From Spirochaetes bacterium ADurb.BinA120 (lineage in GTDB: Bacteria > Spirochaetota > UBA4802 > UBA5368), in NCBI GenBank assembly GCA_002069125.1, contig MVZN01000011.1, positions 1 to 63,971 on the forward strand: a DNA stretch of 63,971 nt. Reading direction: 5' to 3'. The notes under the pieces are model-generated. The model made no database searches. It was not told the origin of the DNA and was given only the letters and a program-made list of their open reading frames with translations. The translations under genes and the position numbers were made by a program. Positions 6,785 to 22,779 of this stretch are shown piece by piece. Within the stretch, counting starts at the first letter, position 1; each line of letters starts with the position of its first letter.

Positions 6785-6820
6785 CCTTTGGTTACTTTCG
6801 CCCCACGAAAGTAACGAAGG
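6785..6820. repeat. Perfect inverted repeat / hairpin
   Basis: GTTACTTTCG (6791-6800) and CGAAAGTAAC (6806-6815) form a perfect 10-bp stem with a CCCCA loop, extended after small bulges by CCTT and AAGG. No U-run follows, so it is more like a REP-type hairpin than a terminator. It lies about 120 bp upstream of the metV-like gene. Confidence 0.7.
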
Positions 6821-6943
6821 CCGTTATATATTATATAGACTTAAGAGAGGGGCTCCCGAAAAACTATTGATTTTAATCCAACGACTGCGGATAGTGGAAG
6901 GCGTGGAATGTCCCATACCTTCCGGCATTATGGAGAGTGCGCC

Positions 6944-7588
6944 ATGATCGTCACCCGCAAAAAGGACGTCGAAACAGTAAAAAAACACGCCTCAAAAGCG
7001 CGAAAAGTGATAATAGTCGGCTGTTCCGAGTGCGCCGCAATCTGCCGAACGGGCGGGTCGGAACAGGTAAGGGAGATGGCGGAGGCCTTCTCCGACCGGG
7101 AGGTGCTGGCCACAATCTCCATCGAATCGCCGTGCGACAAGCGCATCTCCACGCGCGACTTCAAGCGCATAGAGGAAGAGCTCGCCGACGCAGATGCGCT
7201 CATAGCTCTTACATGCGGAAGCGGGGCGCAGGCCATATCCGAGGTTACCGGCAAACGGGTGGTGGCCGCACTCGACACGGATTTTGTCGGGATGGTGGAG
7301 CGCCTTGGCCGATTTTACGAGCGGTGTTCCCATTGCGGCGAGTGCATCCTCAACGAAACGGCGCTTTTGTGCCCCGTCACCCTCTGTCCAAAGGGGGTGC
7401 GTAACGGCCCCTGCGATGGAATCAAAGGCACGGCCTGTGAGGTTTACGAAGACCGAGAATGCGTATGGCACGCCATCCACAGTCGACTAACGGAACGCGG
7501 CGAACTCGAAGCCTTTACCGTCTATCACGCACCCGTCGATTGGTCCGAATGCCATTCTCCAAAGGAGGCCGTATGGGAGCGCTCCTGA
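6944..7588 (+). CDS. metV: MetV-like protein (methylene-THF reductase C-terminal/zinc-cluster domain)
   Basis: MetV partners the flavoprotein MetF in the methylene-tetrahydrofolate reductases of acetogens and related anaerobes, where it carries electrons. Numbered from the ATG at 6944, the protein has an N-terminal cysteine motif CSECAAIC (C27, C30, C34) followed by RTGG, as in MetV, and a C-terminal Cys-rich block with CSHCGEC, then LLCPVTLCPKG, NGPCDG and RECVW, all family landmarks. Homologues begin near MIV, so I prefer 6944 (GGAG 8 nt upstream) over the in-frame ATG at 6908. It overlaps the next gene by 16 bp and heads a coupled cluster with a MetF-like protein and IorAB. Confidence 0.85.
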   Translation: MIVTRKKDVETVKKHASKARKVIIVGCSECAAICRTGGSEQVREMAEAFSDREVLATISIESPCDKRISTRDFKRIEEELADADALIALTCGSGAQAISEVTGKRVVAALDTDFVGMVERLGRFYERCSHCGECILNETALLCPVTLCPKGVRNGPCDGIKGTACEVYEDRECVWHAIHSRLTERGELEAFTVYHAPVDWSECHSPKEAVWERS

Positions 7589-8118
7589 CCGAAAGACTTG
7601 CATACATGGCATCGATCGAATCGATGGAACAGGCCGCCGCCCTCGGCGCGAATGTTCCGGATAAAACTGCGCTCCTCCTCGGGGAATACGGTGCCATCTG
7701 CCCCATTGCTGTTTTGGACAGGATACGGCAAACGCTCAAAGGGCCGGTCCTCCTCGAGCTTCTGTCAAAGAACAAGAACAGGGACCTCATCAGATCGTCG
7801 ATTATCACATCGGCCGCCTGCGGCTTTCAGGGCGTGCTTCTCGCCTCGGGCATTTTTTCATCCGGAGACGGAAAGGCCAGGCCGGTTTACGACCTCGATC
7901 AGGCGCAGATGCTAAGGCTCGCCTTAGGGCTCAGGGAAACGGAGGCCATCCCCAATTCCTTCATAATAGCCGTTCGCTCTGCCTCCGGCAACGCCCCGGC
8001 CGAGCTTCGGGCCCGCTGGTATATCGAAGAGGGAGCGGACTACATAGCCCTCGAAAAAGGCGCCGTCCCAGGGCTTGAATCTAAAACCCTTTTGATTGAA
8101 CCGGTCCGGCCGGCATGA
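7573..8118 (+). CDS. Short MetF-like protein (partial methylene-THF reductase barrel)
   Basis: The start at 7573 has AAAGGAGG five nt upstream, inside the end of the metV-like gene. The 181 residues align in my reading with the central part of MetF: NRDLIRSSIITSAACGFQ matches the helix after the folate-site strand, then VLLASGIFSSGDG and VYDLDQAQMLRLA match the MetF pattern of a GD loop followed by a phenylalanine/leucine-aspartate segment, and EEGADYIALEKGA matches the GADF-I-TQ strand. Full-length MetF is about 290 residues, so the last third of the barrel is missing. It ends by ATGA overlap with iorA. It may be a subunit that needs a partner, or a repurposed binding domain; catalysis is uncertain. 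Confidence 0.7.
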   Translation: MGALLTERLAYMASIESMEQAAALGANVPDKTALLLGEYGAICPIAVLDRIRQTLKGPVLLELLSKNKNRDLIRSSIITSAACGFQGVLLASGIFSSGDGKARPVYDLDQAQMLRLALGLRETEAIPNSFIIAVRSASGNAPAELRARWYIEEGADYIALEKGAVPGLESKTLLIEPVRPA

Positions 8119-10031
8119 ACCAGCTCGCGCTAAACGAAAAGGGCAGGACCATCCTCGCCATGGGTAACGACGCCATAGTGCGCGGAGGGCTGGAGGCCGG
8201 CCTTGGCTATTTCAGCACCTATCCGGGCACTCCCGCCTCCGAAATCGGCGAAGGCTATCTCGCGCTTAGAAAGGAGTTTCCGCATATTCACGCCGAGTTC
8301 AGCGTCAACGAGCACGTGGCCGCACACGGAGCGCAGGGCGCAAGCTGGGCAGGCGTGCGCTCCATGGTAGCGATGAAGCATGTCGGCATGAACGTCGCGG
8401 CCGAGGTTTTGCACTTCGCCGGATATACTGGCGTTCGCTCGGGGCTTGTCGTCGTAATAGGCTCCGACCCCGGCGCAACCAGCTCGACCAGCGAGCAGGA
8501 CGACCGCTGGTATTCGCTACACACGCATCTTCCGATCCTCGAGCCCTCAACCATACAGGAGGCAAAGGACTTCACCGCGCTCGCCTTCGAACTAAGCGAA
8601 CGCTACAACCTTCCGGTTATATTGAACGCGCCGTCCAAGCTTTGCCATAACATAGGCTCCCTTCGCCTCGGCGCTCTCCCGGACGTCTTACCGGCCGGGG
8701 GGCGCTTCGAGCGGAACCCTAACAGGTATATAAACCTCTTCGGCGGCTCCGTGGCAAACCACCGCCGCGCGATGGAGGCCGTTGAAAACCTGCGAAAGGA
8801 CGTCCCCACGCTTGGGCTAAACAGGCTGCTTCCGGGAAGCGGAAAGATCGGCTTTATCTCCTCAAGCGTGAATTACCCGTATCTACTCGAAGCCCTCTTT
8901 CTTCTGGGCATAACAGACGCGCCCGTGCTCAAAATCGGCCTTAGCTTTCCGCTAAATGCCCGGGAGATCGAATCCTTCGCCGAGGGGCTGGAACGCGTAT
9001 ACGTCGTCGAGGAGCTCGAGGGCTTCATCGAGTTTCAGGCAAAGCGCCTCCTATACGACTCCGGCCTTCGCACGCCCGTCATCGGCAAGGCCGTGTTCCC
9101 CGCGTATGGAGAGCTCGACGTTGACATCATAACCGGGCGCATCGCGGACGAACTTGGCGTTAAGCTTCCCGGCCGCATGACGAGGGCCAATGAGCTCGCC
9201 GACAGGCTCGCGGGCGACCTCCCGCCGCGCCAGGGAGCCTTCTGCACCGGCTGCCCGCACAGGGCCACGCTGTACTCCATCGTAAAGGCCACTGGACGCG
9301 ACGCCGTATTTGCCGGAGACATCGGATGTTATACGCTATCGTGCCTTCCGCCCTTCAGGGCCTTCGACTGGGTCACATGCATGAACTGCGGCGTGGGGAT
9401 AGCCCAGGGCCTGCTTCAGAAGATCGAGGGTGAAGACCTCATCGCCTATGTCGGAGACTCCACCTTTTTTCATTCCGGAATCCCCGGCCTGATTAACGCC
9501 GTACAGCAAAATGCGGACCTTGTGCTCATCATCCTCGACAACAAGTGGGTCGCCATGACAGGGCACCAGCCCAGCCCCACCACCGACACGACGCTTGACG
9601 GCACGCGCATGCGTCCGGTGGACATCAAGGGCCTTTTAAAATCGATCGGCGTATCCTACGTACGCACCATAAAGCCATTCAACATAAAGGCCTCCATGGC
9701 CGCCATCAAAGACGCCATCCGCGCACGCGGCGGCGTGCGGGTGCTTATCGCCGAGGAGGAGTGCGCCCTGCAGTACGGCAGGCGAATCGCGCGGGAGCCG
9801 GGCGAGTATGAGGTCTACTATCAGATCGACGCGGAACGCTGCCAGAAATGCAACGAGTGTTACATCGAGCTCGGATGCCCGGCCATAAGGCGCGAGGACA
9901 CCGCCGACGGCTGGCGCTATTATATCGAAGAGGCGAGCTGTCTTAGGTGTGGAGCCTGCCACGACCTGTGCCTTAACTCCGCCATCCTTAGAACCGAGAT
10001 ACGGCGGCCAGTGGGAGCGGTGAAGTCATGA
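8115..10031 (+). CDS. iorA: Indolepyruvate ferredoxin oxidoreductase, alpha subunit
   Basis: IorA with IorB oxidatively decarboxylates aryl-pyruvates (from Trp, Phe, Tyr) to aryl-acetyl-CoA and reduces ferredoxin. The 638 residues show the pyrimidine-binding domain with YPGTPASEIGE near the start, the thiamine-diphosphate motif GDSTFFHSGIPGL and the segment MTGHQPSP around residues 450-500, and two C-terminal iron-sulfur motifs: CQKCNEC with a following CP, and CLRCGACHDLC. Length fits the family (about 600-650). It is translationally coupled to both neighbours by ATGA overlaps (8115-8118, 10028-10031), so a fixed stoichiometry with the MetF-like protein and IorB is likely. Confidence 0.93.
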   Translation: MNQLALNEKGRTILAMGNDAIVRGGLEAGLGYFSTYPGTPASEIGEGYLALRKEFPHIHAEFSVNEHVAAHGAQGASWAGVRSMVAMKHVGMNVAAEVLHFAGYTGVRSGLVVVIGSDPGATSSTSEQDDRWYSLHTHLPILEPSTIQEAKDFTALAFELSERYNLPVILNAPSKLCHNIGSLRLGALPDVLPAGGRFERNPNRYINLFGGSVANHRRAMEAVENLRKDVPTLGLNRLLPGSGKIGFISSSVNYPYLLEALFLLGITDAPVLKIGLSFPLNAREIESFAEGLERVYVVEELEGFIEFQAKRLLYDSGLRTPVIGKAVFPAYGELDVDIITGRIADELGVKLPGRMTRANELADRLAGDLPPRQGAFCTGCPHRATLYSIVKATGRDAVFAGDIGCYTLSCLPPFRAFDWVTCMNCGVGIAQGLLQKIEGEDLIAYVGDSTFFHSGIPGLINAVQQNADLVLIILDNKWVAMTGHQPSPTTDTTLDGTRMRPVDIKGLLKSIGVSYVRTIKPFNIKASMAAIKDAIRARGGVRVLIAEEECALQYGRRIAREPGEYEVYYQIDAERCQKCNECYIELGCPAIRREDTADGWRYYIEEASCLRCGACHDLCLNSAILRTEIRRPVGAVKS

Positions 10032-10651
10032 TAGCCTACGATATCCTGATATGCGGAATAGGCGGACAGGGCGCCATTTCGCTCGGAACGGTGCTCAAGC
10101 TCGCCGCTATACATGAAAGGCTCGAGGTCGTAGGGGCGGAGCGGCGCGGTGGTGCCCAGCGCGAGGGGATCGTAACGAGCAACGTAAGATACAGAAAGCT
10201 CGAGCCGGGCGAGACGCCAGACGAACGGCTGACAGCCGTATCCGGGCTCATCCCATCCGGCGGGGCACACATGATGATATCGATGGAGCCCCTTGAGGCG
10301 CTAAGGCACGGGCGCTGGCTCAACGAAAGCTCCGTGGTGATAGCTAACGATTTTCCTCTAACGCCCGTTTCGGTCCGTATGGGAGAGAGGGAATATCCCA
10401 CGCTCGAAAGCCTTAAGGAGAGGCTTGGGAAAATCACGCCGCACGTCCACGTTTTTCCGATCGACGAGCTCTCCAGACGTCATTTTAAATCCCTGCGGCA
10501 GGTAAACACCATCGCGCTTGGAATGGCGAGCGCCCTCGGCCCACTTCCGGTATCGGACGAATCAATACTCGCAGTAATCCGCGAGCAGTTTCCGGACTTC
10601 GAAACGAACCGCGAGGCCTTCGCCCTGGGAAAGCATACCGCGCTCGCGTAG
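10028..10651 (+). CDS. iorB: Indolepyruvate ferredoxin oxidoreductase, beta subunit
   Basis: IorB is the gamma-domain-like subunit of the enzyme and pairs with IorA. The 207-residue protein starts with the diagnostic ILICGIGGQGAISLG loop, then GAERRGGAQREG, both hallmarks of 2-oxoacid:ferredoxin oxidoreductase gamma/beta chains. Length is normal (about 190-210). Its ATG overlaps the iorA stop. It is the last gene of the cluster; the next gene converges on it 12 bp downstream with no obvious hairpin in between. Confidence 0.93.
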   Translation: MIAYDILICGIGGQGAISLGTVLKLAAIHERLEVVGAERRGGAQREGIVTSNVRYRKLEPGETPDERLTAVSGLIPSGGAHMMISMEPLEALRHGRWLNESSVVIANDFPLTPVSVRMGEREYPTLESLKERLGKITPHVHVFPIDELSRRHFKSLRQVNTIALGMASALGPLPVSDESILAVIREQFPDFETNREAFALGKHTALA

Positions 10652-19231: not shown

Positions 19232-22204
19232 TTATGCCTCCTTCCTGATATCGACAAGAAATGCCTTGAACTCGGGGATGTTGGTGTTGGCGTCCCCAAT
19301 GCTCGGCGTTAGCTGATTGCAGCTGTCGCCCGACACTCCGCATCCATGGCCGAAGTGCCAGATCATACCGATCATCTCCACCATCTTTCCCTGTACCTTC
19401 AGCGGCTGCACCCTTTCGGTTACCAGGGCGTACGCGCCTATGCTGCCGCGGGAGTTGAATATCCGCACCCTGTCGCCGTTCTTTATGCCCTTGGCTTTGG
19501 CGAGGGTCGGACTAATTTCACAGAACATGTCCGGGACCAGCTCCGCAAGCCACGGAAGGTTTCGGGTCATGGCCCCTGCCTGCCAGTGTTCTACAACCCG
19601 GTAGGAGGTGCCGATATAGGGGAAACGCCCCGCATCGCCGAAATCTCCTTTAAGGCTGTCCAGCGCCTTCGCGGCGGGGTTCATCCTCTGCGAGCTGAAA
19701 ATGTTCGCCACCGGAGTTTCCATGGGTTCGTAGTGCTCGGGGAAAGGCCCGTCCACAAGGTCTCTGGAGAAGAGCTTGCCGACTCCCTCCGCGTTCATAA
19801 TGAAAGGATTTTTGGCGTCGGGTCCGGCCGCGGGCCCGCCGTCGACGATATCGCCCTTCCAGGCGCTGCCGGTCCACTTGACGACCCAGCGGTTCTTGTC
19901 CCACGGTTCGCCCTTGCGGTTAACGGCCGCCCGGTTGTAGATGATGCGCCGGTTGAGCGGCCAGCACCACGACCATTCCGGAAACATTCCTATCTTGTTG
20001 GACGCGTCCTTCGCTCCGCGGCGGGCCATCATGTTGCCCTTTTCGGTGTAGCTGCCCGCGTATATCCAGTCCCCGCAGGCGGTGGAGCCGTCGTCCTTGA
20101 GGTCCATAAAGGACTTCATGAGCTTCTTGGTTTTGTAATCGTAGCCGTTGATCTCCTTGGCAACGAGATGAGGGCTGGCCTCGTGCTCGCCCGGCTCGGT
20201 GTAGTTCCAAACCAATTTCAGGATGGGATCGGCAAACCTGCCGCCTTCCTTCTGGTATAACGCCTTGAGCTCGCGATAGATCATGTCGAGCATATCGAGG
20301 TCAGACTTCGCCACTCCGGGCGGGTTCTGCGCCTTGTAGCGCCACTGCGCCCAGCGGCCCGAATTGGACACGCTTCCCTCTTTCTCGAAAGAGGCTGCCG
20401 CGGGCAGAAGGAAGACCTCGGTCTTGATCCTGGCTGGATTCGCTCCAGGGCGCTTCCAGAAAATGGACGAGTCCGTCTCCCACAGGTCCACGGCCACCAG
20501 CCAGTCGAGGTTTTCCATTCCCCTGGCGGTACGGTTGGCGTTCGGACCGCCGACTATGGGGTTGGTGCCCATATAAAAGGCCCCTTTAAGCTGGCCCGCG
20601 TACATGTCCTCGAAAAGGGTGATATATGGAACCGGCTTGTGGGCCTTGGGGAGCCAGTCATAGCAGAAATCGTTTTCTTTTGTAGCGGCATCGCCGAACC
20701 AGGCCTTGAGCATGCTGATGAGATACTTGGGGCGGTTCGACCACCAGTTTATGCTCCTGGGATCATTGGTCTTCGGCGTGGTCGCCTTGAGGTAGGCCTC
20801 CAAATTGGGATGGGCCTTGGCCACCGGGGACGGGATATAACCGGGGAGGATATGCCAGAGAAGCCCGGCGTCGGTCGAGCCCTGCACATTGGACTCCCCT
20901 CGGAGAGCGTTTATTCCGCCGCCGGCAAGGCCCATATTCCCCATAAGTAGCTGAAGCACCGCGTATATGCGCACATTCTGCGTTCCCACAGTGTGCTGCG
21001 TTGTGCCCATGGCGTACATAATGGTCGCCACCTTGTCGGGCTTGTGGGTGGAGGTAAAGAGCTCCGCCACCTTGAGGAACGTCTCCCTGGGACAGCCGGT
21101 CGAAAGCTCCACCTTTTCCGGTGTGTAGCGGGAATAGTGCTTTTTCAGGAGCTGAAAAACGCAGTTGGGGTCCTTAAGCGTCCTGTCCTGCTTAGGGATA
21201 CCCTTGTCGTCGAGCTGGTAGGTCCAGCTTTTGGTATCGTAGCTTTTGGTAGCCGCGTTATAGCCGCTGAAAAGCCCGTCGTTAAATCTGAAATCGGGGT
21301 TTACGAGATAGGACGCGTTTGTGTATTCCAGCACGTATTCCTTCTGGATTCGATCGTTCTCCAGGGCATAATTTACGATTCCGCCGAGGAATGCCAGGTC
21401 CGAACCGGGGCGCAGGGGCGCGTAGAGGTCGGCGAGCGCCGCCGATTTGGTGAAGCGGGGGTCGACCACTATGAGCTTGGCCCCTCGCTCGTCCTTGGCC
21501 TTCTGGACCCAGCGGAAGGATATGGGATGGTTCTCCGCGGCGTTAGAGCCCATTACGAGGACAACGTCGGCGTTCTTCACGTCTATCCAGTGATTTGTCA
21601 TCGCGCCACGACCAAAGGAAGCCGCCAGACCGGCGACTGTCGCGCTGTGTCAAATTCGGGCCTGATGTTCCAGGTAGGTTATCCCCAGCATCCTCGCAAA
21701 TTTCGAGAGAGCGTAACACTCCTCGTTGTCGAGCGCGGCGCCGCCGAGGCTCGCTATCCCTGCGCAGCGATTTACGGTAACGCCGTTCTCATTTTCAATG
21801 AATGTGGCGTCCCGCGTGTCCTTGACCCTGCGGGCTATCATCTTGACGGCCTGCTCCCAGGAAATCTCCTCCCATTCCGTGCCGTAGGGTTTTCTGTACT
21901 GGACCTTGGACAGCCTTCTTGGATTGTCGGAGATCTGGAAGAGCGCGCTACCCTTCGAACAGAGGGAGCCCTGGTTTATCGGATGGTCCGGGTCGCCCTC
22001 GATATTGACGATTTTGCCGTTCCTCGTTGAAACGATAAGGCCGCACCCGACCCCGCAGTAAGGACAAATCGTCGTACTTTCGCGGGTTCCCTGCAGTTTG
22101 TCAGGCGCGGATTTACACCCGCTGAGGAACGATACACCGCCGAAGAAAGCCCCGGCCGCCGTAACACCGGACAGCCTGAGGAAATCCCTTCTGGTTATGG
22201 ACAT
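19232..22204 (-). CDS. fdhA: Formate dehydrogenase catalytic subunit, selenocysteine-containing
   Basis: A 990-residue FdnG-type formate dehydrogenase (molybdopterin guanine dinucleotide). From the ATG at 22204 (GGAGG 7 nt upstream) the order is: twin-arginine signal TRRDFLRLSG, hydrophobic core ending FLSGC (which also fits a lipobox), a 4Fe-4S site CPYCGVGCG with a later LCSKG, and an in-frame UGA at 21650-21652 as codon 185. The context QARI-U-HSATVAGLAASFGRG is that of selenocysteine formate dehydrogenases, and the frame is open on both sides (MTNHWIDVKNAD follows). The Sec residue ligates the metal. Length fits FdnG (about 1015). Reading the UGA as a stop would wrongly split the gene. 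Confidence 0.95.
21620..21638 (-). promoter_or_regulatory. Bacterial SECIS element (selenocysteine insertion hairpin)
   Basis: Eleven nt after the UGA, the mRNA can form a 7-bp stem AGUCGCC/GGCGGCU (one U-G pair) with the loop GGUCU. A GGUCU apical loop is the SelB-recognition signature of fdhF/fdnG SECIS hairpins. It lies within the coding region and is what turns this UGA into selenocysteine. Confidence 0.9.
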
Positions 22205-22779
22205 AACTATCCTCCTGCCTTTATTTTGATCGACCATTGATGAACTGTGTTAATGCTCTATGTGCATTCCGCAAAGGCGGAAGACATATATTCATGGGCT
22301 TAGCGATAACCGGGCCCGAACGGGAGGTCGGGATAGAAAGCGATCTGCAACCGGGGAAAAACGGAGAAAATGATAGCACCATTCCACCCGACCCTGCGCC
22401 AATAAAGTTACCGACATGCAAACGCCCCCTCCGCCGTCCAAGGCGGCCCGCCGGCAGGCAGCCTGCAGGGCCCGGGGTTTTGCACTTCTTTACAGAATCG
22501 GGAGGCGGGGTGATTTCTCGCCCGGCCTGCGGTCAGGCCCCATAGCATCCGCCTTAGGAGCGCAAACTCGAAGTGATTTTCTTTTATTTCCATCCCCCTA
22601 TATGTCAATGAATTTTTTAATAATAAAGGTTAACAAATCGAAAACCCGCATTGACCGCCTCCGCGCAAATACACGAAAAAACTGGTTTACAAATAGTGTC
22701 CTCCAATTATAAGCTCTATGCATATCCTGTAGAAACGCGTGGAAGACAACCGGCGCCGAAAACGTATCCAATAAATGAA
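22205..22779. other. Intergenic region upstream of fdhA and the DNA methylase
   Basis: I see no clear gene. It must hold divergent promoters for fdhA (minus) and the methylase (plus). A small hairpin TTCCGC-CTTT-GCGGAA lies about 75 bp upstream of fdhA (22268-22283) and a GC-rich stretch with several self-complementary pieces is at 22430-22480. I could not fit a molybdenum-cofactor riboswitch. The methylase frame is open back to 22651, so part of this stretch could be coding. Confidence 0.5.

Follow-up and report, generated by a model that had tools for sequence, protein, structure and literature searches.

To our knowledge, the only role in which MetV has so far been encountered is that of the subunit through which electrons enter the methylene-THF reductases (MTHFRs) of acetogens, and the way in which it accepts electrons is still a matter of debate. 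The closest described systems are the MetVF-type enzymes (types II-IV), represented by MetVF of Clostridium ljungdahlii, MetVF-RnfC2 of Acetobacterium woodii and MetVF-HdrCBA-MvhD of Moorella thermoacetica, in which MetV modules serve several electron donors (PMC8760232). Here, a locus of Spirochaetes bacterium ADurb.BinA120 is described in which metV is followed by a short metF-like gene (sMetF) and by the genes of an IOR-like enzyme (iorA and iorB). The locus lies within a stretch of 63,971 nucleotides (positions 1 to 63,971 of contig MVZN01000011.1), referred to below as the window. As far as the literature was searched, this arrangement has not been reported previously, and a search for reports linking MetV genes with IOR genes found none.

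All four genes were verified as open reading frames at the positions given in Table 1, and the overlapping metV-sMetF-iorA-iorB cluster, first proposed from the nucleotide letters of the window, was found as claimed: metV and sMetF overlap by 16 nt, while the sMetF/iorA and iorA/iorB overlaps are of 4 nt each. An in-frame ATG is also present at position 6908, upstream of the metV start (6944). Promoter and terminator scans returned signals at about background level. Control of the unit by a riboswitch was considered and rejected, the region upstream of metV being devoid of such elements; the search of the window yielded tRNAs and, at 22469-22585, a Moco riboswitch, but nothing else.

Table 1. 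Features of the metV-sMetF-iorA-iorB unit (positions within the window).
Feature	Position	Strand	Basis
metV, 214-aa MetV-family iron-sulfur protein	6944..7588	+	alpha/beta N-terminal half and PF12225 C-terminal domain
PF12225 domain of MetV, with cysteine cluster motifs	7265..7546	+	profile match and cysteines
sMetF, 181-aa short MetF-like gene, non-canonical	7573..8118	+	MetF-derived fold without MTHFR catalytic residues
KNKNR motif (sMetF 66-70)	7768..7782	+	counterpart of RDRNR motif in MetV-type MetF
VYDLD motif (sMetF 105-109)	7885..7899	+	V, first D and second D common to MetV-type MetF
iorA, 638-aa alpha subunit of IOR-like 2-oxoacid:ferredoxin oxidoreductase (POR_N, TPP_enzyme_C)	8115..10031	+	PF01855, PF02775, TIGR03336
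IorA C-terminal two-[4Fe-4S] ferredoxin-like segment	9840..9971	+	C576, C579, C582, C588; C609, C612, C615, C619
iorB, 207-aa beta subunit of IOR-like enzyme	10028..10651	+	PF01558, IOR_beta

The same gene order was detected in all 11 genomes of uncultured Spirochaetota that encode sMetF, in one of which the contig stops within iorA; in a twelfth genome the metV homologue runs off the contig end. The iorA-iorB overlap amounts to exactly 4 nt in each of the nine measurable loci, and the metV-sMetF spacing ranges from a 16-nt overlap to a 2-nt gap across 11/11 loci. At all other well-matched MetV/MetF loci examined in Spirochaetota, iorAB was absent from the vicinity. A wider contig scan, which constitutes the whole of our coverage of phyla beyond Spirochaetota and does not imply absence elsewhere, returned a sole match, JADFDB010000064.1 (QR_Bin.4), apparently the same as contig C202 of genome G002 in our set. 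Among plasmids, sMetF had no match, and MetV and IorA had distant matches only; relatives of the unit's proteins were not found among viral contigs.

Hence, the check for the same gene order in other genomes, suggested with the original proposal, came out in its favour, and the unit is more than a chance neighbourhood of a single genome. Its confinement, among the searchable genomes, to one order of one phylum might be taken as a sign of a chance or lineage-restricted neighbourhood without functional meaning. This explanation is exceedingly improbable, however, as the four genes stay together in three families while their flanks change from family to family, and IorA of the window type (69-84% identity) was never found apart from MetV-sMetF, the other IorAs of the order being at most ~42% identical. 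Since the four genes are conserved as a unit and coupled in translation, a functional link between their products is credible and the products probably form a complex. Co-transcription of the unit can also reflect shared regulation only.

The metV product matches PF12225 with 103.5 bits (cut-off 23) and retains 12/12 of the cysteines that are invariant in the MetV set of the phylum (C27, C30, C64, C91, C128, C131, C134, C143, C148, C157, C165 and C173), so that both the domain and the cysteine set of MetV proteins of the MetVF type are present. No other PF12225 gene occurs in the genome. The AlphaFold2 model of MetV has a pLDDT of 89.7; Foldseek with this model returned nothing at E < 0.001, and a PDB sequence search with the MetV profile gave no matches.

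The assignment of IorAB to the IOR family is less strict. IorA scores 578.6 bits against TIGR03336, below the equivalog cut-off of 650.9, and IorB, which matches PF01558 with 80.3 bits, reaches 121-123 bits against the IOR-beta models, below their cut-offs of 205.8-238; for IOR_beta (TIGR03334) the score is 121.1 bits and the cut-off 205.8. The TPP domains, the C-terminal cluster cysteines and the separate IorB expected of an IOR are all present, and the eight cluster cysteines of IorA are invariant among nine homologues, the Fer4_10 match to this tail being weak and sub-cut-off. Because the scores fall below the curated cut-offs, the “indolepyruvate” label expresses a family resemblance, and aryl-pyruvate as the substrate is unproven. 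A second, canonical IOR is encoded on contig C12 next to a phenylacetate-CoA-ligase (PaaK-like) gene, its IorA being ~41% identical to that of the window. A PDB sequence search found no solved IOR structure.

The third component, sMetF, has no match in Pfam or NCBIfam at E 0.001, PF02219 included. When it was aligned with full-length MetF, as had been advised, a relation to MetV-type MetF was nevertheless found (hhalign 97.4%, E 1.4e-11, residues 42-159), residues 1-41 being unalignable by sequence. N69 (10/11 sMetFs) together with V105, D107 and D109 (11/11) are kept; the corresponding residues occur in 16/16 MetV-type MetFs and in 0/11 type I MetFs. Judged by this comparison, sMetF descends from a MetV-dependent MetF. 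The AlphaFold2 model (pLDDT 86.5, pTM 0.84) is a compact alpha/beta domain with seven strands, whose top PDB fold matches are MTHFRs (Z 13.5, 165 residues aligned, rmsd 3.1). The fold alone is not specific, because methylisocitrate lyases and OMP decarboxylases score only ~1 Z unit lower; a PDB sequence search with the sMetF profile gave chance hits only. The sequence-only reading had described a 181-residue MetF lacking the last third of the barrel. Its length and MetF-like nature were upheld, but the protein is not simply cut at two thirds, as the model aligns with residues 23-281 of E. coli MTHFR.

A pseudogene was rejected as an explanation, the frame being open in 11 genomes and dN/dS (~0.17-0.32) indicating purifying selection. 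sMetF evolves ~3x faster than the neighbouring genes, as would befit a loosely constrained accessory protein, and one may accordingly imagine MetV-sMetF as a regulatory or storage module co-expressed with IorAB by happenstance, with no complex formed. Such a module seems quite unlikely, as the genes are associated exclusively with one another in three families whose flanks differ, are tightly coupled and encode a MetV with fully conserved cysteines.

It had also been suggested that the complex couples aryl-pyruvate oxidation to the reduction of methylene-THF, or another folate-bound one-carbon unit, on sMetF. In favour of this view, known ferredoxin-dependent MTHFRs pair MetF with MetV (PMC8760232), sMetF is MetF-derived, and an IOR was detected by mass spectrometry in an acetogen MTHFR preparation, although the authors of that study regard the IOR as a contaminant that appears inconsistently (PMC9430772). 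However, the C1-carrier positions of MTHFR, the importance of which has been demonstrated by mutants, are Glu28, Asp120, Gln183 and Phe223 in E. coli numbering (PMC11094777), and all four are lost or unalignable in sMetF. The equivalents of Asp120, Gln183 and Lys172, the last a lysine conserved in both MetF classes, are lost in 11/11 sMetFs, the strand carrying Phe223 is missing, and no E-x-x-PP motif was found in the N-terminus. The full-length catalytic MetF that MetVF-type loci encode together with MetV is replaced here by a degenerate protein. In addition, the genome encodes a separate full-length MetF on contig C39, and type I MetF was found in 12/13 genomes checked, being absent, among the unit-bearing genomes, only from one incomplete assembly. 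It had been proposed that a complete MetF encoded at another site of the genome, accompanied by a second MetV, would count as counter-evidence; this holds by half, as the MetF exists but no metV adjoins it. That MetV of the window works with the C39 protein is not favoured, the residues of the latter being those of a MetV-independent type I enzyme.

Owing to the lost or unalignable C1-carrier positions and the separate ordinary MetF, folate reduction by the unit is judged unlikely from sequence, the suggested coupling was not borne out, and the corresponding model appears very improbable. Some residual chemistry may persist, since 6/11 sMetFs retain a Glu close to where strand 1 ends, and residues 1-41 cannot be aligned.

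The best reading of the whole, to which about an even chance may be given, is that of one functional unit in which a remnant of MetF, no longer acting on folate, would dock a MetV relay onto IorAB. The four products would most likely constitute a single enzyme complex, IorAB being its putative 2-oxoacid:ferredoxin oxidoreductase, a thiamine-diphosphate enzyme of the IOR family. The electrons released when a 2-oxoacid is oxidised would pass through the two [4Fe-4S] clusters in the IorA tail to the iron-sulfur clusters of MetV, a path rendered plausible by the retained 12 cysteines of MetV and eight of IorA. MetV would act as a wiring module, as in MetVF-type MTHFRs, exchanging electrons, in one direction or the other, with an acceptor that is not part of the unit. 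Since sMetF kept its MetV-partner features and lost the C1-carrier site, it would most likely be an adaptor docking MetV on IorAB, possibly with an altered ligand or flavin pocket, and presumably not a methylene-THF reductase. The MetV/MetF-remnant and keto-acid oxidation halves would probably be wired electrically, with no folate chemistry.

The residues that sMetF shares with MetV-type MetF could, on the other hand, be related to the binding of FMN instead of the docking of MetV. The residues invariant in 11/11 sMetFs (G37, E38, Y39, G40, E62, K68, R70, G93, D107, D109, R135 and R146) lie mostly at or just past the ends of predicted strands 2-5, on the flavin-binding side of the MTHFR fold, and the loop 95-104 before VYDLD, the only segment with pLDDT < 50, would suit a loop that becomes ordered once a ligand or partner is bound. 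A repurposed site, in which the shortened barrel would hold FMN or a novel ligand and reduce a non-folate acceptor with electrons of MetV and IorAB, is nonetheless unlikely given the loss of the Lys172 equivalent, and the conserved pocket could be a protein interface. A further reading, possible but rather doubtful, would see the MetF barrel turned into a new redox or ligand-binding subunit that has lost the folate site while retaining the features of its MetV side together with an altered, conserved pocket. With MetV and IorAB it would make up a four-subunit 2-oxoacid oxidoreductase that passes electrons to an acceptor, a non-MTHFR “type V” MetV complex.

If the docked-relay reading is true, the locus would be a natural case of MetV being bound up, along with a MetF remnant that cannot handle folate, with an enzyme that oxidises 2-oxoacids and reduces ferredoxin, and it would demonstrate that the wiring role of MetV can be a general one. 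In the unit, the MetV-side features persist in a MetF that has no folate site, which offers a natural means of testing which residues of MetF are there for MetV. It is also a warning for annotation: the presence of metV and metF-like genes alone does not justify inferring an MTHFR or the methyl-branch step of the Wood-Ljungdahl pathway.

Compared with the MetVF-type MTHFRs, the locus shares a MetV with invariant cysteines, whose gene directly precedes, and overlaps, one derived from metF, and MetV would likewise be an electron-transfer module joined to a further oxidoreductase. It differs in its MetF component, of 181 instead of ~300 aa and without the C1-carrier site, and in the added partner, a predicted thiamine-diphosphate 2-oxoacid enzyme in place of RnfC2 or Hdr/Mvh. 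As in IorAB (TIGR03336/TIGR03334), the POR_N, TPP_enzyme_C and C-terminal ferredoxin-like segments follow in order, IorB is separate, and IorA carries the GDSTFFHSG...LDN...AMTGHQ stretch typical of the IOR family; unlike canonical IorAB, the pair scores below both equivalog cut-offs and invariably accompanies metV-sMetF. Type I MTHFR (E. coli MetF, PF02219), finally, provides the best fold match of sMetF, which differs from it in lacking a PF02219 match, in the replacement of the catalytic Asp and Gln and the conserved Lys, and in being ~110 residues shorter.

The four genes that the sequence-only reading had described were borne out in the sequence, with overlaps of 16 nt between metV and the short metF (product sMetF, 181 aa) and of 4 nt at both the sMetF/iorA and iorA/iorB junctions. 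All 12 cysteines invariant among 24 MetVs are kept in the window MetV, whose structure was predicted with confidence (pLDDT 89.7), no close match to the model being found in the PDB. The eight C-terminal cluster cysteines of IorA are kept in 9/9 aligned homologues, and judging by their sequences, MetV and IorAB look intact. Upstream of metV, a 13-nt inverted repeat (TTGGTTACTTTCG/CGAAAGTAACGAA) lies at 6788-6818; similar words occur in two loci (L073, L132) of another genome of the phylum, and this is possibly a dispersed intergenic repeat.

Locations of the features (window positions, or fetched loci with the prefix L)
Feature	Location	Strand	Remarks
metV	6944-7588	+	PF12225, 103.5 bits
short metF (sMetF)	7573-8118	+	no Pfam or NCBIfam match
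iorA	8115-10031	+	indolepyruvate oxidoreductase (IOR) family match, under curated equivalog score
iorB	10028-10651	+	IOR family match, under curated equivalog score
formate-dehydrogenase-like gene	19232-22237	-	in-frame TGA at codon 196 (ARIUHSAT)
Moco (molybdenum/tungsten) riboswitch	22469-22585	-	precedes formate-dehydrogenase-like gene
AcsB-AcsD fusion, window's genome	L192:4705-5787 and L191:2-2470		contigs C119 and C89
AcsB-AcsD fusion, other loci	L193:5207-8686; L194:6864-10367; L195:5430-8972; L196:286-3891

sMetF was sought by profile and by sequence in 46 genomes of the window's order (the full sample of its class) and in 393 genomes sampled for the phylum; it was identified in 11, which all belong to three families (f1, f2, f4) of this order. 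The gene order first seen in a single stretch was recovered throughout: metV - short metF - iorA in all 11, with iorB next in 10, the contig of the eleventh stopping within iorA. In a twelfth genome (G007) metV lies at a contig end, and another (G001, 80% complete) lacks the unit, which is thus not proven universal in f1. Window-type IorA (69-84% identity among the genomes carrying the unit) occurs nowhere else in the order, the other IorAs of which share at most about 42% identity with it. Other MetV loci of the phylum mostly adjoin a full-length MetF (about 285-330 aa), and no iorAB was found near those examined. A related contig, JADFDB010000064.1 (QR_Bin.4), belongs to a genome of the window's genus; the one short-pattern scan reaching beyond Spirochaetota found a single close relative. 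Since the order is conserved while the flanking genes vary from family to family, and window-type IorA is exclusive to the unit, the unit is real and specific, and its age is sufficient for it to reach across three families.

Compared by profile with 16 MetFs of full length from the MetV-type (MetV-dependent) group, sMetF residues 42-159 gave 97.4% probability (E 1.4e-11). The confident AlphaFold2 model (pLDDT 86.5, pTM 0.84) has MTHFRs as its top solved-structure matches (Z 13.5, 165 residues, rmsd 3.1); other barrel enzymes reach Z 12-13, and the fold by itself is not specific. Because the model aligns with E. coli MTHFR residues 23 to 281, sMetF is predicted to be a shortened barrel of seven strands rather than a MetF simply truncated at two thirds; of the earlier description as a MetF-like protein lacking the last third, the likeness to MetF and the length stood. 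All 11 genomes have an sMetF of similar length (about 170-183 aa), and sMetF is under purifying selection, with dN/dS (NG86) of about 0.17-0.32 versus about 0.05-0.12 for MetV, IorA and IorB.

Four C1-carrier positions have been discussed for E. coli MTHFR: Glu28, Asp120, Gln183 and Phe223 (PMC11094777). The columns for Asp120 and Gln183 are unconserved in 11/11 sMetFs, the barrel part bearing Phe223 is missing, and an E-x-x-PP motif sought in the N-terminus was not found; a glutamate close to where strand 1 ends, present in 6/11, is the sole candidate remnant of Glu28. The Lys172-equivalent lysine, conserved in both MetF classes, is lost as well. All 11 sMetFs keep V105, D107 and D109 (VYDLD), and 10 of them N69; these four are conserved in 16/16 MetV-type MetFs and in none of 11 type I (MetV-independent) MetFs, all from genomes carrying the unit or their close relatives. 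With MetV-type residues kept and C1-carrier positions lost, sMetF descends from a MetV-dependent MetF, having retained the marks of a MetV partner and lost the folate side.

The window's genome, a 3.5-Mb assembly of 216 contigs with 96% completeness, has a single PF02219 MTHFR gene, on contig C39, coding for a 285-aa full-length MetF. The sequence-only reading had counted a full-length MetF with its own MetV as adverse; the former exists, but no MetV lies beside it, and the window MetV is the sole PF12225 protein of the genome. The coupling proposed earlier, in which aryl-pyruvate oxidation would drive reduction of a bound one-carbon or folate substrate, is disfavoured, because sMetF has lost the C1-carrier site and a separate MetF is present in 12 of the 13 genomes checked, the only genome with the unit and without such a MetF being a 76%-complete assembly. 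A second IorAB, the IorA of which scores over the IOR cut-off, adjoins a phenylacetate-CoA-ligase-like gene on contig C12. In other spirochaete genomes, two tandem metV-metF pairs (L098:6839-10312) and a MetV-type MetF adjoining a type I MetF (L140:6878-9908) indicate that MTHFR types have been duplicated and mixed in the phylum.

Acetyl-CoA synthase (AcsB/CdhC) is fused to the corrinoid iron-sulfur protein small-subunit domain (AcsD/CdhD) in proteins of about 1160-1200 aa. Fusion-length ORFs (1085-1207 aa) occur in eight genomes of the families carrying the unit, the ACS ORFs of other families of the order being 735-789 aa; a literature search found no paper describing this fusion for spirochaetes. 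Upstream of the CODH/ACS genes, three loci encode a conserved protein of 353-356 aa that has no Pfam match (L192:849-1919, L193:1361-2422, L196:7909-8979). Only two proteins of the window's genome carry Pterin_bind (PF00809), and one of them is probably FolP, so that no dedicated AcsE methyltransferase was identified. The in-frame TGA of the formate-dehydrogenase-like gene is consistent with selenocysteine.

The conserved, coupled unit encodes a 2-oxoacid:ferredoxin oxidoreductase together with an iron-sulfur module and a MetF remnant that has lost folate competence. Its four products would form one complex, in which electrons released by 2-oxoacid oxidation would travel from the tail clusters of IorA to those of MetV and on to an acceptor outside the unit, sMetF being a putative dock for MetV. 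A literature search found no paper pairing MetV genes with IOR genes. IOR was among the proteins of an acetogen MTHFR preparation, where it was inconsistently found and termed a contaminant (PMC9430772), which is at most a hint. Known electron-entry partners of MetV are ferredoxin (type II), RnfC2 (type III) and HdrCBA-MvhD (type IV) (PMC8760232). In contrast to these MTHFRs, IorAB would here be a further MetV partner, with the MTHFR reaction itself absent.
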